DNA from: a virus
Virus record (IMG/VR): IMGVR_UViG_3300033994_001756
Span: 1-64,000 of that record
Length of the DNA: 64,000 nt
Strand: one strand, 5' to 3'
The translations under genes were made by a program, and so were the position numbers. Shown here in pieces: positions 10,431 to 27,810 of this stretch. Within the stretch, counting starts at the first letter, position 1. Every line of letters starts with the position of its first letter. The notes below the pieces were generated by a model, which saw only the letters and a program-made list of their open reading frames with translations, searched no databases and had not been told where the DNA came from.

Positions 10431-10476
10431 GGGCTGTCACAGACCACTTGACAGCCCTGCCAATCTGCCCTATTGT
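10431..10476 (+). promoter_or_regulatory. promoter with -35 inside a perfect inverted repeat
   Basis: TTGACA (10448) - 17 bp - TATTGT (10471) drives the small-gene operon at 10527. The -35 box is part of a perfect 9-bp inverted repeat, GGGCTGTCA (10431) / TGACAGCCC (10449). This could be the helicase terminator stem or an operator; it lacks a T-run. Confidence 0.7.
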
Positions 10477-14871: not shown

Positions 14872-14930
14872 AGAATTATTAACCATATACTGTATACCTC
14901 TAGAATTATTAACCATATACTGTATACCTC
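14872..14930 (+). repeat. tandem 29-bp repeat with palindromic core
   Basis: Two identical 29-bp copies (14872-14900, 14902-14930), one base apart, each starting AGAATTATTAACC and containing ATATACTGTATAC, an inverted repeat. The AATTATTAAC part recurs at 16312, 18659 and 18678. It could be paired operator sites or tandem -10 regions. Part of the 376-base gene-free stretch 14816-15191. Confidence 0.7.
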
Positions 14931-15136: not shown

Positions 15137-15165
15137 TTGACAGGCCACCCAGGATGGTGTATATT
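15137..15165 (+). promoter_or_regulatory. sigma70-type promoter
   Basis: TTGACA, exact 17-bp spacer, TATATT. It lies 10 bases after the palindrome ATTAGTATTACTAAT and upstream of the gene at 15192. Confidence 0.8.
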
Positions 15166-15638: not shown

Positions 15639-15650
15639 TCAGTCAGGGGG

Positions 15651-15680
15651 TTGACACCAGCCCCCAACCCATGCCATACT
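15651..15680 (+). promoter_or_regulatory. sigma70-type promoter, extended -10
   Basis: CAGGGGG, TTGACA, 18-bp spacer, TGC-CATACT. GGGGG (15646) and CCCCC (15661) can pair with the -35 in the loop. The leader is nearly identical to that at 15434. Confidence 0.8.
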
Positions 15681-16277: not shown

Positions 16278-16287
16278 AATCAGGGGG

Positions 16288-16316
16288 TTGACATCCCAGC
16301 CCCCACCTGTTAAATT
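16288..16316 (+). promoter_or_regulatory. sigma70-type promoter, extended -10
   Basis: CAGGGGG, TTGACA, 17-bp spacer, TGT-TAAATT. GGGGG (16283) and CCCCC (16300) flank the -35 as a possible hairpin. The -10 overlaps an AATTATTAAC repeat element. Confidence 0.8.
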
Positions 16317-17770: not shown

Positions 17771-17815
17771 ATCAGGGTCTGACCCATAGCCAGGGTCCCC
17801 CTGATACCCTATACT
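17771..17815 (+). promoter_or_regulatory. hairpin overlapping promoter
   Basis: ATCAGGG (17771) / CCCTGAT (17799) can pair. Within it TAGCCA (17787) - 17 bp - TATACT (17810) forms a promoter for the gene at 17858, with the -35 in the loop. Confidence 0.6.
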
Positions 17816-18172: not shown

Positions 18173-18186
18173 CAAGTGGCACACCG

Positions 18187-18210
18187 GGGCTTGACAGCAA
18201 GCCCTTTTTT
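18187..18210 (+). terminator. strong terminator containing TTGACA
   Basis: GGGCTTG / CAAGCCC with loop ACAG, then six T. The stem-loop junction spells TTGACA, but no -10 lies at the correct distance. Confidence 0.85.
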
Positions 18211-18443: not shown

Positions 18444-18488
18444 GACCCCCTAGACTCTGGCCAGGATCTGTGCGATTCTATGGGGGTC
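18444..18488 (+). promoter_or_regulatory. promoter enclosed in an inverted repeat
   Basis: GACCCCC (18444) / GGGGGTC (18482) enclose TAGACT (18451) - 17 bp - GATTCT (18474, preceded by TGC). Upstream of the 49-residue gene at 18504. Confidence 0.5.
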
Positions 18489-18653: not shown

Positions 18654-18716
18654 TATAAAATTATTAACAGTATTACAAATTATTAACCGTAATAGGTAAT
18701 ACTTAACCATACATCC

Positions 18717-18734
18717 CCCCCACACACGTGGGGG
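18717..18734 (+). terminator. hairpin terminator
   Basis: CCCCCAC / GTGGGGG perfect stem with ACAC loop. The preceding 18654-18716 is AT-rich with two AATTATTAAC elements. Confidence 0.6.
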
Positions 18735-18735
18735 C

Positions 18736-18760
18736 ACAATGTATATACATTTTACATTGT
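18736..18760. promoter_or_regulatory. nested palindrome, possible operator
   Basis: ACAATGTA (18736) / TACATTGT (18753), with the perfect palindrome ATGTATATACAT (18739-18750) overlapping the left arm. Located between a terminator and the next promoter. Confidence 0.5.
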
Positions 18761-18810
18761 GACAATCCAAGGGCTGGCCACCAACTGGCCCACACCACGC
18801 CAGCCCACCT

Positions 18811-18831
18811 GCTATACTGATCTCAGTTCAG
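18811..18831 (+). promoter_or_regulatory. extended -10 promoter
   Basis: TGC just before TATACT (18813-18818), followed by GATCTCAGTTCA, matching the block at 13427. No clear -35. Gene start at 18841. Confidence 0.6.
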
Positions 18832-18840
18832 CCAAAGGCT

Positions 18841-19050
18841 ATGATCGCCAACCACGCCACCGCACAAGACTTCGCCAACTGGGAGGCCAAAGCCAAGGCC
18901 ATGACTATGGCTGGGCTGGTATGGTCAGCACAAGATGCTCGCAAGGCCCAACAGGCGATGCGAGGCTGGAACCCCATCGCTGAGGGTCGCTACAGCGATG
19001 AGGCGAGCACCTATGAGGATGAGATCAGGCGTCGCAGGGCCAGGGCCTGA
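18841..19050 (+). CDS. hypothetical protein, GC-rich cassette
   Basis: 69 residues, ATG 18841. MIANHATAQDFANWEAKAKA, then a helical stretch and an Arg-rich end (EDEIRRRRARA). GC-rich codons. Not recognised. Confidence 0.6.
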   Translation: MIANHATAQDFANWEAKAKAMTMAGLVWSAQDARKAQQAMRGWNPIAEGRYSDEASTYEDEIRRRRARA

Positions 19051-19153
19051 GCTGGCACAAGGCCAGCTGGCCTGCTGGCACACGCTAAACCCCAGTGGGC
19101 CAGTTCTAGAACTGCCACAGCTGTGCCACTTCTAAAGGCTGCACAAGCCCCTG

Positions 19154-19183
19154 TTGCCAGCTGCCGCTTGGGCCTGCTAGTGT
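19154..19183 (+). promoter_or_regulatory. promoter of the 19209 gene
   Basis: TTGCCA - 18 bp - TAGTGT, with TGC directly before the -10. The upstream 19051-19150 contains several GGCCAGCTGGCC-type inverted repeats. Confidence 0.5.
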
Positions 19184-19208
19184 TCCTTACGTACACCGCA
19201 CTACAGCG

Positions 19209-19463
19209 ATGACCACCACTGAAACCCGCCTCACCGTTGAACAGGCCACCTACGCTGTGGAGAGGTTGCTGAGCTGGGCTGACAGCGAGGATGATCGCAA
19301 GCCGAGCACGTTTGCCCTGTGGCTGAGCCTTACCGGAAACGGCGGCACACTATGGGCTTTCGACAGAGGCTACCTAGAGTGCTCGATGCTCGCCGATGCC
19401 CTGCAGGCATGGGCCACCTACCCGAACGAGATCCGAGATTGGCTGGCTGACAACTGCATCTGA
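19209..19463 (+). CDS. hypothetical protein, GC-rich cassette
   Basis: 84 residues, ATG 19209. TRLTVEQATYAVERLLSWAD, then LWLSLTGNGGTLWAFDRGYL. Acidic. Its stop begins the repeated post-stop block TGAGCCCAGCCGGGG. Not recognised. Confidence 0.65.
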   Translation: MTTTETRLTVEQATYAVERLLSWADSEDDRKPSTFALWLSLTGNGGTLWAFDRGYLECSMLADALQAWATYPNEIRDWLADNCI

Positions 19464-19471
19464 GCCCAGCC

Positions 19472-19505
19472 GGGGACCCTACGGGGTCCCCCCATCTGCT
19501 AAGAT
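19472..19505 (+). terminator. cUACGg-loop terminator plus extended -10
   Basis: GGGGACCC-TACG-GGGTCCCC stem-loop (19472-19491) followed by TGC-TAAGAT (19497-19505). The C(UACG)G loop is the extra-stable UNCG type. Confidence 0.75.
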
Positions 19506-19510
19506 TCTCA

Positions 19511-19533
19511 AGTCCAACCGACACAGACCAATG
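19511..19533 (+). repeat. leader A, copy 1
   Basis: AGTCCAACCGACACAGACCA directly followed by the ATG; identical copy at 19816-19838 in front of a different gene. No Shine-Dalgarno sequence. Confidence 0.75.
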
Positions 19534-19761
19534 TCCCGCACCATCTCCACCGATTGCATCCGTTACACTGTTAGTGGCTATGAGTACGATTACGAGCCCA
19601 AAAACTACATGGGCACCCTTGACTGGTTCAACGTCGCCCGTTGTGCCCGTGAGCGCATGACTGAGAATTGCGGCGAAATTAACCGCTGGCGGGGTGAGCG
19701 TCGCTCTTTCTATACGTCCATTGTCAAGATGGACGCCGACACCAAGCATTTGATGGACTGA
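19531..19761 (+). CDS. hypothetical protein, GC-rich cassette
   Basis: 76 residues from ATG 19531, placed exactly at the end of leader A; the longer open frame runs through the terminator. MSRTISTDCIRYTVSGYEYD, then WFNVARCARERMTENCGEIN. Unlike its neighbours it is basic in the centre. Unknown. Confidence 0.65.
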   Translation: MSRTISTDCIRYTVSGYEYDYEPKNYMGTLDWFNVARCARERMTENCGEINRWRGERRSFYTSIVKMDADTKHLMD

Positions 19762-19775
19762 CAGCGAGCCCAGCC

Positions 19776-19810
19776 GGGGACCCTACGGGGTCCCCCTTCC
19801 GTGGTACACT
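19776..19810 (+). terminator. cUACGg-loop terminator plus extended -10
   Basis: GGGGACCC-TACG-GGGTCCCC (19776-19795), identical to 19472, then TGG-TACACT (19802-19810). Confidence 0.75.
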
Positions 19811-19815
19811 TTACG

Positions 19816-19838
19816 AGTCCAACCGACACAGACCAATG
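19816..19838 (+). repeat. leader A, copy 2
   Basis: Identical to 19511-19533, including the ATG. Confidence 0.75.
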
Positions 19839-20021
19839 GCCACGATCAGCCCCATTGAAGCCGACTTTCTGACCCATTGCATTGACGTATGGTGCAATGA
19901 GACTCCCCAGGTCGCCGGCAGGCCCGTGATGTTTACCACGCAAGAGGGTGGAACTGAAAGGGTCCTGCTGACCCACGATCAAATCGAATCCCTGTTCCTG
20001 CGCCTGCAGGCATTGAAGTGA
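19836..20021 (+). CDS. hypothetical protein, GC-rich cassette
   Basis: 61 residues, ATG 19836 at the end of leader A copy 2. MATISPIEADFLTHCIDVWC, ending HDQIESLFLRLQALK. Helical, acidic. Not similar to the gene behind leader A copy 1, so only the control DNA is shared. Confidence 0.65.
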   Translation: MATISPIEADFLTHCIDVWCNETPQVAGRPVMFTTQEGGTERVLLTHDQIESLFLRLQALK

Positions 20022-20029
20022 GCCCAGCT

Positions 20030-20049
20030 GGGGAGCCTACGGGCTCCCC
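20030..20049 (+). terminator. cUACGg-loop terminator
   Basis: GGGGAGCC-TACG-GGCTCCCC, a compensated variant of the 19472 terminator (bases changed on both arms). No clear -10 before the next gene. Confidence 0.75.
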
Positions 20050-20080
20050 TTCCTACCCACAAACCAACCCACCTAAGGCC

Positions 20081-20281
20081 ATGGTCAGCACTATCAGCAC
20101 TCACACGGCTTACGATCGCCCGGAAGGGCTGCCCCTTTCCACCGGTAGGTGGGAGATGTGGTGGTGTCTTGCCTGTAACGCTGGCTACCGGGGCGACCGG
20201 CAAGCCAAGCGGCTGGCGCTCGCCCAATACAGGCGAGCAGTCGAGCTGGAGATCGGCTCCCAACTCCTATTCGACGCCTGA
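20081..20281 (+). CDS. hypothetical protein, GC-rich cassette
   Basis: 66 residues from ATG 20081. MVSTISTHTAYDRPEGLPLS, then WEMWWCLACNAGYRGDRQAK with a CxxC pair, and a basic helix at the end. Possible zinc-binding fragment; unknown. Confidence 0.6.
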   Translation: MVSTISTHTAYDRPEGLPLSTGRWEMWWCLACNAGYRGDRQAKRLALAQYRRAVELEIGSQLLFDA

Positions 20282-20289
20282 GGCCAGCC

Positions 20290-20323
20290 GGGGCCAGCTA
20301 CTGGCCCCATCCTGTGGTAGAGT
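20290..20323 (+). terminator. terminator plus extended -10
   Basis: GGGGCCAG-CTA-CTGGCCCC (20290-20308), then TGG-TAGAGT (20315-20323). Confidence 0.7.
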
Positions 20324-20350
20324 TTGCAAGCAAACCAAGGGAGAACCCCC

Positions 20351-20548
20351 ATGGCTTTCTATCTGCAGGCACCCTCCGGCACCATCGCCACCTTTGAACA
20401 GCTGGCGGCTGATCGGATGGTGTTCGCTTGCGGCCCTGACGTTGTGGAGCTGTCCCTAGAGGATGCTCGCAAGGTCTGGCAGGCCCTGCTGATCTGCCAG
20501 TATCAGCCCACTGATAGGGAGGCTGCACTCCTACATCAGGGCTGGTGA
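20351..20548 (+). CDS. hypothetical protein, GC-rich cassette
   Basis: 65 residues from ATG 20351. MAFYLQAPSGTIATFEQLAA, then DRMVFACGPDVVELSLEDAR. Looks like a small alpha/beta domain. A GGGAGAA sequence upstream may be a ribosome site, unusual for this array. Unknown. Confidence 0.65.
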   Translation: MAFYLQAPSGTIATFEQLAADRMVFACGPDVVELSLEDARKVWQALLICQYQPTDREAALLHQGW

Positions 20549-20556
20549 GCCCAGCC

Positions 20557-20595
20557 GGGGCAAGCTTGACGGCTTGCCCCTTCATCCTCTATACT
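20557..20595 (+). promoter_or_regulatory. fused terminator-promoter
   Basis: Terminator stem GGGGCAAGC (20557) / GCTTGCCCC (20572) has TTGACG as its loop. TTGACG - 18 bp - TATACT (20590) is a good sigma70-type promoter. The -35 hexamer is therefore the loop of the upstream terminator. Confidence 0.8.
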
Positions 20596-20597
20596 TA

Positions 20598-20626
20598 ATC
20601 TCAAGCGGGCCGATCGGTGCCCGCAC
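20598..20626 (+). repeat. leader B hairpin, copy 1
   Basis: 29 bases identical to 21228-21256: ATCTCAA, then GCGGGC-CGATCGGT-GCCCGC hairpin, then AC. It lies in the 5' untranslated leader. Confidence 0.75.
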
Positions 20627-20639
20627 CGCTTCTCAGACC

Positions 20640-20924
20640 ATGGAATACAGCGACCTTTTCACCCCCTGCTCGGTAGGCGACCTGCGCCTACCGCCTAAGT
20701 TCCAGACGATACTTCACGTGCTGTACGTAGATACAGCAGCAAACCAGCCCACACGTGGCTGGCTGTATTTGCCAGCTGGGTTGGTTCTGAGCTGGGCTTG
20801 TGAGCCCGAGCACGGCGAGGAAGTGGAACTGTGGGCATGTGGCCCGCTCAGCCTCACCCGGCCCATGACAGATGAGGAGCGTGAGGATTGGCGCTGCGAT
20901 CAGTACGATCCCGCCGACTGGTGA
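20640..20924 (+). CDS. hypothetical acidic protein, GC-rich cassette
   Basis: 94 residues from ATG 20640 after leader B. MEYSDLFTPCSVGDLRLPPK, then a beta-rich part (GWLYLPAGLVLSWACEPEHG) and an acidic end. Unknown. Confidence 0.65.
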   Translation: MEYSDLFTPCSVGDLRLPPKFQTILHVLYVDTAANQPTRGWLYLPAGLVLSWACEPEHGEEVELWACGPLSLTRPMTDEEREDWRCDQYDPADW

Positions 20925-20932
20925 GCCCAGCC

Positions 20933-20952
20933 GGGGACCCTACTGGGTCCCC
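20933..20952 (+). terminator. terminator
   Basis: GGGGACCC-TACT-GGGTCCCC; one loop base differs from the TACG copies. No clear -10 before the next gene. Confidence 0.7.
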
Positions 20953-20984
20953 CTTCCTACCTACACCCCACAAGCACAAGCACC

Positions 20985-21173
20985 ATGTACGAAACCCTTA
21001 GGGAAGCCACCGAAGCCCGCATGAACGAGCAGGGCTGCATCCCCTATCAGGATGCTTTCAGTGAATCGATCAGCCACGGTGTCGGGCAAGAGTTTTTGGC
21101 CCTGTATGGCTCAGCCATAGGCTGGCCCAATGGGGTTGACGCCGGGGAGTGGCTGGTCTGGCTAGGTTACTGA
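20985..21173 (+). CDS. hypothetical protein, GC-rich cassette
   Basis: 62 residues, ATG 20985. MYETLREATEARMNEQGCIP, ending DAGEWLVWLGY. Acidic, helical. Unknown. Confidence 0.6.
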   Translation: MYETLREATEARMNEQGCIPYQDAFSESISHGVGQEFLALYGSAIGWPNGVDAGEWLVWLGY

Positions 21174-21185
21174 ATATGAACTTTA

Positions 21186-21210
21186 GGGCCAGCTCAGCCA
21201 CGGCTGGCCC
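21186..21210 (+). terminator. terminator
   Basis: GGGCCAGC / GCTGGCCC with a 9-base loop; the possible -10 TAGGAT lies at 21221. Confidence 0.65.
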
Positions 21211-21227
21211 GCCCATCCTGTAGGATT

Positions 21228-21256
21228 ATCTCAAGCGGGCCGATCGGTGCCCGCAC
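21228..21256 (+). repeat. leader B hairpin, copy 2
   Basis: Identical to 20598-20626, in front of a different gene. Confidence 0.75.
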
Positions 21257-21268
21257 TGCCTGAAGACC

Positions 21269-21562
21269 ATGAATCGCCAACTGCTGACCATCGCCGACGC
21301 CTACATCTCGAACATGTTCGAGTGGGCACGCCGTGCCGACTGCGAGTTTGGCACCGCTTGTGCCGAGCTCGAAACCTACGTCTGCTCGATCACCACGTAC
21401 CGGGAGGATGGCCACGCTTTTGAGAATTGCCCCCACGATCTCTACCAGACCGTGGCGATGCCTGACGGGTTCGCTGAGCTGGAGGATGACGAGGCAGATC
21501 TGGTGATCGAATACCTCGGCGACGTGTGGCCCAGCCTCTGGCGGGACGCCATGGCCTGGTGA
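21269..21562 (+). CDS. hypothetical acidic protein, GC-rich cassette
   Basis: 97 residues, ATG 21269. MNRQLLTIADAYISNMFEWA, then a Cys-containing acidic C-terminal half (LEDDEADLVIEYLGDVWPSL). Last gene of the cassette array. Unknown. Confidence 0.65.
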   Translation: MNRQLLTIADAYISNMFEWARRADCEFGTACAELETYVCSITTYREDGHAFENCPHDLYQTVAMPDGFAELEDDEADLVIEYLGDVWPSLWRDAMAW

Positions 21563-21570
21563 GCCCAGCC

Positions 21571-21590
21571 GGGAGCCCTACGGGGCTCCC
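21571..21590 (+). terminator. cUACGg-loop terminator
   Basis: GGGAGCCC-TACG-GGGCTCCC; last terminator of the array. Confidence 0.75.
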
Positions 21591-21952
21591 CCATTGATCA
21601 GCAATCCTAATCGATCAGCAGTCCTTATCAGTGGGCAGGGGCAGTATAAACGGCCCTTATCGGTCGCCGCCCGCCGTACCCGTGAAAAACCTCTAACTAC
21701 CCTAAGCTATAACGTACCCAGAAAGCCAGAGAGATACTCAACCAACTCAAAAATTTTCCACCAACCTCCAAGCCCATCCAAGGTTTCCCCATATGCCCCT
21801 CCCAACCCGCACAACATATTCCGAGCAATTCACATATATCGCCCTTTGTCTTACCGAGTGTATCAAAATAATCTCGGAAAAAATTTTCAACAAAAAAAAT
21901 TCCGAGAACCGTTTAGATCCTCGGAAAAAATAATTTATTTGAGTTTGTAGAT
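21591..21952. other. gene-free junction between convergent modules
   Basis: About 360 bases without a gene. The left part still resembles array DNA (GATCAGCA repeated near 21596 and 21614). The right part is AT-rich with TTCCGAG/CTCGGAA motifs at 21819, 21872, 21900 and 21920. TCTCGGAA (21872) / TTCCGAGA (21900) forms an 8-bp hairpin flanked by A/T runs, a likely terminator for the leftward genes. Confidence 0.5.
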
Positions 21953-27786: not shown

Positions 27787-27810
27787 GGGGGTCATTTGAC
27801 CCCCTTTTTT
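27787..27810 (+). terminator. Rho-independent terminator
   Basis: GGGGGTC / GACCCCC with loop ATTT and a T-run. Confidence 0.9.

Follow-up and report, generated by a model that had tools for sequence, protein, structure and literature searches.

The closest described relatives of the element reported here are the PeSL (promoter-early stem-loop) cassettes of T4-type phages (Arbiol et al. 2010; Comeau et al. 2014; both via PMC4503421). In those cassettes, as in ours, a sigma-70-like early promoter and a terminator hairpin lie between small non-essential genes in plastic regions of T4-like phages. The S-PM2 paper (PMC4503421) discusses PeSLs for cyanophages, few of which were found there, and its passages on PeSLs describe no nesting of the two signals. 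In the literature we found no promoter that overlaps a terminator or lies inside one; the original PeSL papers (Arbiol 2010, Comeau 2014) could contain a nested case. Another known arrangement is the "moron" of lambdoid phages, which is a gene with its own promoter and terminator (PMC1524935).

We analyzed a window of 64,000 nucleotides, which corresponds to bases 1-64000 of a 172,253-bp IMG/VR virus record. By its proteins the virus is a T4-like cyanophage, because its major capsid protein shares 72% identity with the counterpart from Synechococcus phage S-CREM1 and because its portal, sheath, and baseplate proteins are of the T4 type. The region at 18700-21600 is a GC-rich island of tandem ORFan genes, and the remainder of the phage is AT-richer. 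The small ORFs of this array all lie on the plus strand, and Pfam and PHROG searches with their proteins gave no matches. The gene content of the array varies among the related contigs L009, L011, L012, and L134, and the junction sequences are common to them. Past the array (21595-21720 in the window, and likewise in these four relatives) there are repeated GATCAGCAATCCTGATC-like units as well as a conserved block, GGCAGTATAAACGGCCCTTATCGGTCGCC. Elsewhere, attattaaccatatactgtatacct occurs in tandem, with two copies at 14879-14930 of the window and three in L134 (about 5900-5790); the copies sit in the gap adjoining a strong minus-strand promoter (15013-14985).

The initial annotation drew attention to one junction in the array, at 20557-20595, and overlooked that it belongs to a series: between 18.7 and 21.6 kb, almost every ORF has a hairpin 10-20 bases past its stop codon, usually followed 6-12 bases on by a -10-like box. 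The features at this junction are:

20351-20548, plus strand: upstream small ORF of 65 amino acids, with no Pfam or PHROG match; its 3' end bears the 20557 element
20540-20556, plus strand: small hairpin GGCTGG-TGAGC-CCAGCC from the predicted fold, abutting the main hairpin
20557-20580, plus strand: main hairpin, GGGGCAAGCT-TGAC-GGCTTGCCCC, terminator-like and without a U-run (from the sequence, the fold, and the tail score)
20566-20571, plus strand: -35 box TTGACG in the hairpin loop, its TTGAC invariant in 10 related elements
20590-20595, plus strand: -10 box TATACT, 18 bp from the -35 box and 9 bases past the hairpin
20605-20624, plus strand: 5' leader hairpin GCGGGC-CGATCGGT-GCCCGC just past the predicted transcript start; its arms vary and still pair in relatives
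20640-20924, plus strand: downstream small ORF of 94 amino acids, an ORFan, predicted to be driven by the nested promoter

When we re-read the positions, the layout given in the initial annotation (a stem, the loop TTGACG, 18 bp, and TATACT) proved to be exact. The arms are GGGGCAAGC (20557-20565) and GCTTGCCCC (20572-20580), and if a T-G pair is counted then the RNA stem is 10 bp with the loop UGAC. The hairpin is stable and GC-rich, as an intrinsic terminator would be: RNA from 20540-20605 folds with -31 kcal/mol (z = -4.0), and none of 200 shuffles was as stable. A U-run was sought right after the hairpin and is absent, with CTTCATCC in its place; the tail TTCATCCTC scores -3.27, versus -4.3 to -6.3 (mean -5.28) for relatives with a U-run. 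The -35 and -10 hexamers are near consensus and are kept 16-18 bp apart in relatives, as is typical of sigma-70 promoters, and they predict a start at about 20602 for the downstream transcript. The upstream ORF ends with a TGA stop codon that falls within the loop of the small hairpin at 20540-20556.

Hairpins directly at the transcript start are also seen in the relatives L009, L011, L145, and L159, with arms that vary yet pair (CAAGCGGGC..GCCCGC; GCGGGG..CCCCGC; CGGGGGC..TCCCCC). Since a leader hairpin follows each promoter, one-gene transcripts may carry a hairpin cap at each end.

The upstream 65-amino-acid ORF has an orthologue in L012, with the same gene order. The 94- and 104-amino-acid cassette proteins have no match among named phages, and a search of bacterial genomes gave no relative of the 94-amino-acid protein. 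Megablast of the window block against phages gave no match, and an Rfam search of 10-28.5 kb gave no hit. Relatives of the downstream gene, and of one further gene in the array, led us to about 20 contigs. Across 10 related elements, TTGAC is invariant and the -10 box is kept 18 bp on, and the arms differ yet pair (GGGGCAAGC/GCTTGCCCC, GGGGCAAGC/GTTTGCCCC, GGGGCAGC/GCTGCCCC, GGGCCAGCTG/CGGCTGGCCC, and GGCCAGCTG/CAGCTGGCC). A stem that varies and still pairs around a fixed loop implies that the structure is maintained and so is the sequence of the loop. (Pair counting on one fixed structure was dropped, as the stems vary in length and register; GAGCCCAGCCGGGG alone was too unspecific as a query against viral contigs.)

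We then scanned viral contigs with the pattern GGGGN{0,4}CTTGACRGN{0,4}CCCCTTTT, which describes a terminator with a CTTGACRG loop and a T-run, and which imposes a floor of TTTT and a fixed C-G pair at the loop. At least 120 stretches match, and those listed are all perfect hairpins of at least 7 bp; where the pattern leaves base pairs free, 133 of 136 are standard pairs. Among the matches listed there are 97 unique hairpins, and 93 of them have a -10 box (at least 4/6 matches at 16-18 bp, the criterion for both the viral and the bacterial scans), although these counts include orthologues (27 on one gene pair) and hence are not independent events. The best -10 box lies exactly 17 bp on in 79 of the 97. 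With a scrambled loop of the same composition (CTTCAGRG), we found just 13 stretches, and a -10 box in 0 of 8 hairpins (Fisher 2e-9). Bacterial and archaeal genomes, 257 Gb in total, had 62 stretches, with a -10 box in 10 of 55 hairpins (Fisher 5e-24). Furthermore, of the unique matches listed (99 when uniqueness is keyed slightly differently), 97 come after the stop codon of an ORF, at a median distance of about 12 bases, and 93 have codirectional ORFs on either side; the gene pairs make up 43 distinct contexts. A second form, GGGGGTTGACnCAGCCCCC, which is the type seen at 15646 and 16283 of the window, has 56 unique viral copies, with a -10 box in 39.

The element is also present in cultured Synechococcus phages. 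BLAST placed it in gene gaps of S-CREM1, S-RSM4 (after hsp20), S-MbCM7/ACG-2014h, S-CAM3, and S-H34 (before tRNA-Tyr), and the isolate behind one element-bearing contig is S-T4. At the end of hsp20, the nested element is conserved in the marine Synechococcus phages S-RSM4, S-WAM2, S-H9-1, and Sf-CH1b. A similar element precedes an HNH endonuclease gene in Enterococcus phage Toszka. These comparisons indicate that a promoter nested in a terminator-like hairpin is a real, conserved, and widespread element.

Within the phage itself, the arrangement is not due to chance. A search for a hairpin with TTGAC in its loop and a -10 box at 16-19 bp found 4 composites on the plus strand of the window, versus 0.03 in dinucleotide shuffles, and 9 in the whole 172-kb genome, versus a mean of 0.05 and a maximum of 1 in shuffles. 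(One of the nine, at 27796, could simply be a terminator that precedes a late promoter.) A version with a U-run, GGAGGGCT-TGAC-AGCCCTCC-TTTTTT...TATACT, precedes a glutaredoxin-like ORF at about 107.26 kb. Related composites in the window, and a promoter that stands alone, are:

10431-10476, plus strand: composite with TTGACA in the 3' arm, then 17 bp and the -10 box TATTGT
15137-15165, plus strand: promoter TTGACA-17-TATATT without a hairpin, at the head of an array
15646-15680, plus strand: composite GGGGGTTG-ACAC-CAGCCCCC, then 18 bp and the -10 box CATACT
16283-16316, plus strand: composite GGGGGTTG-ACATCC-CAGCCCCC, then 17 bp and the -10 box TAAATT

The three composites had been named in the initial annotation as related arrangements, and their -35/-10 pairs (at 17, 18, and 17 bp) are real. 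We do not accept two others that it named: at 17771 there is a hairpin and a TATACT with only TAGCCA (4/6) as the -35 box and no TTGAC, and at 18444 the arms GACCCCC...GGGGGTC enclose a loop of about 30 bases, also without TTGAC. A conserved U-run terminator at 18186-18205 has TTGACA across its loop and no -10 box at 16-19 bp, and it has counterparts at L145:8334, L146:8334, and L149:8334; perhaps it is a promoter that lost its -10 box, or perhaps the loop has another use. At L163:8325, the leader behind a TTGACG hairpin has no -10 box. That leader follows a different hairpin in L011 (about 1360-1410), so L163:8325 is likely a recombinant at the hairpin boundary. Because neither of these has a -10 box, a TTGAC loop alone is no proof of a promoter.

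Most hairpins of the 18.7-21.6 kb series lack TTGAC in the loop. Other members are:

19472-19505, plus strand: hairpin without TTGAC, with the loop TACG, then TGC-TAAGAT
19776-19810, plus strand: hairpin without TTGAC, then TGG-TACACT
20030-20049, plus strand: hairpin GGGGAGCC-TACG-GGCTCCCC, with no clear promoter
20290-20323, plus strand: hairpin GGGGCCAG-CTA-CTGGCCCC, then TGG-TAGAGT
20933-20952, plus strand: hairpin GGGGACCC..GGGTCCCC, 3' of the 94-amino-acid ORF
21186-21226, plus strand: hairpin GGGCCAGCT-CAGCCAC-GGCTGGCCC, then TG-TAGGAT
21571-21590, plus strand: final hairpin of the array, without TTGAC and without a promoter behind it, as in 9 of 9 arrays

At junctions inside the arrays, some hairpins have TTGAC and others do not, and among hairpins at the ends of arrays it was found in 0 of 9. 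Since array-end hairpins lack TTGAC and the promoter at 15137 has no hairpin, the terminator and promoter halves are separable. Those without TTGAC usually have a TG before the -10 box, as in extended -10 promoters. That TG appears where the -35 box is missing is clear by eye for the 20557 type. Across all deduplicated hairpins the trend is not significant (p = 0.11), because the GGGGGTTGAC type often has both, so that the idea is only suggestive.

We are fairly confident that the element is a nested terminator-promoter. The claim that one short element ends one gene and starts the next divides into two halves. The promoter half is strongly supported: the -35 box in the loop appears to belong to a real promoter, because a -10 box is present in 93 of the 97 viral elements listed versus 0 of 8 with the scrambled loop, TTGAC is invariant, the arms vary, and the flanking genes are codirectional. 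Sequence comparison shows the promoter itself, the conservation of the stem, and the intergenic location. The terminator half has strong backing at copies with a U-run, including the one in the phage's own genome, and termination of the upstream gene at 20557 itself is only probable (tail score -3.27), because there is no U-run and CTTCATCC follows. That hairpin may be a weak terminator or may only define or protect the 3' end.

We propose that the RNA of the upstream gene would fold at its 3' end into the GC-rich hairpin and would presumably be released there at the 20557 copy. The same DNA, as a double strand, would offer a -35 box from the middle of the palindrome and a -10 box 17-18 bp on, which would be read by RNA polymerase with, presumably, the host's main sigma factor. 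With a predicted start at about 20602, the hairpin would not be part of the downstream RNA. Each small gene in the array would then be its own transcription unit, and consecutive units would share about 40 bp where one ends and the other starts. The two functions may have been merged to save space, to make a portable junction cassette, or both.

The last of these possibilities could be the main one: short identical junctions might chiefly let small genes swap, which is the role of PeSLs. This is possible but less likely than not, and it is compatible with a nested terminator-promoter. The same element joins different gene pairs: the same junction precedes different genes at L009:5571 and 5919, upstream families are paired with several downstream families, and the TTGACG hairpin joined to a -10-less leader at L163:8325 is one likely recombinant. 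However, recombination leaves unexplained the fixed spacing between the -35 and -10 boxes and the varied arms, which lower the homology.

It is more doubtful that the element combines a promoter with a hairpin that stabilizes or processes the 3' end, so that it protects or defines the cleaved end of the upstream mRNA and polymerase does not stop at copies without a U-run. No hairpin of the 18.7-21.6 kb array, not even the last, has a U-run, and the phage has U-runs elsewhere (at 18186, 27786, and 107.26 kb). A 5' hairpin is also present in each leader, as in mRNAs that are protected at both ends. On the other hand, the same geometry with a U-run, in the phage's own genome and in most relatives, argues for a terminator elsewhere, and a promoter right behind each hairpin is sensible if transcription ends there.

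If the hairpin does act as a nested terminator-promoter, then the nesting might have been selected as a control device. If a polymerase stopped at the hairpin, its active site would lie over the -10 box, and therefore termination and initiation would exclude each other in time. A polymerase that pauses or terminates in the hairpin would cover the downstream promoter, and a waiting holoenzyme would block or help the release of the upstream polymerase. In many Kyanoviridae, polymerase traffic would then suffice to switch neighboring early genes one after another, with no regulator involved. We consider such selection unlikely. The mutual dependence of the two events, as raised in the initial annotation, is a conjecture whose sole basis is the unavoidable overlap of the sites.

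Mere crowding, in which the terminator and the promoter evolved separately and TTGAC fell in the loop as the gaps are short, seems quite improbable. Phage intergenic gaps are tiny and the halves are separable (the 15137 promoter without a hairpin and the array-end hairpins without a promoter), but compared with the scrambled loop, the loop position shows an enrichment of at least 9-fold, it is found again across 43 gene-pair contexts, and phage RB49, with similar gaps, keeps its terminators and promoters in series. Finally, an inverted repeat centered on the -35 box is a frequent site for dimeric regulators and the GGGGG/CCCCC arms of the 15646/16283 type are rather constant, but it is very unlikely that the palindrome acts as an operator, bound by a dimeric repressor or activator, instead of as an RNA hairpin, as the arms of the 20557 type are not conserved among copies as expected of an operator and vary with complementarity kept, which a protein operator would not allow, the U-runs are on the coding-strand side, the elements come directly after stop codons, and the arrays close with promoterless hairpins.

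A nested terminator-promoter gives a rule for locating early transcript starts and ends in T4-like cyanophages from sequence alone: a terminator with TTGAC in its loop and a -10 box 17 bp on. Annotation programs handle promoters and terminators as separate features. If the overlap is regulatory, then it would couple neighboring genes without a regulator. A two-function part of about 40 bp would also be useful for compact genetic circuits in cyanobacteria.

Compared to intrinsic (Rho-independent) terminators, the element likewise has a perfect, GC-rich hairpin that directly follows the stop codon and, in most relatives, a U-run; it differs in that the loop is a conserved -35 box and in that the 20557 copy lacks the U-run. 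The promoters of the N4 virion polymerase are single-stranded DNA hairpins that are read by the phage polymerase. In both systems a hairpin forms part of a promoter, but the cyanophage promoter has standard sigma-70 boxes that would be read as double strand, and its hairpin belongs to the upstream RNA. As with morons, the genes are single and small, have their own start and end signals, and have a GC content unlike the rest of the phage; in contrast to morons, the signals are common to neighbors, and the phages are lytic and T4-like and carry the genes as long tandem arrays.

Judging by sequence, PeSL cassettes are the nearest known kind. In both, a sigma-70-like promoter and a stem-loop share one short intergenic cassette between small genes, and the junctions are common to different genes. 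The order of the parts differs. We examined the geometry of PeSLs in 149 kb of RB49 sequence, where most terminators with a promoter behind them are serial: the hairpin and U-run are followed by the -35 and -10 boxes, with the -35 box 16-34 bases after the end of the hairpin, and the hairpin loops are UUCG/GAAA-like. The sole match to the nested kind in RB49 is inside a coding gene, as expected by chance. The cyanophage element does not follow this serial order. In the window and in S-CREM1, the -35 box is inside the hairpin and starts 9-12 bases before its end, and the -10 box is 9-14 bases past the hairpin, compared to about 40 in RB49. The cyanophage element would work likewise, nested rather than serial, and is a more compact and widely repeated version of the promoter-terminator cassettes of T4-type phages, found in many relatives.
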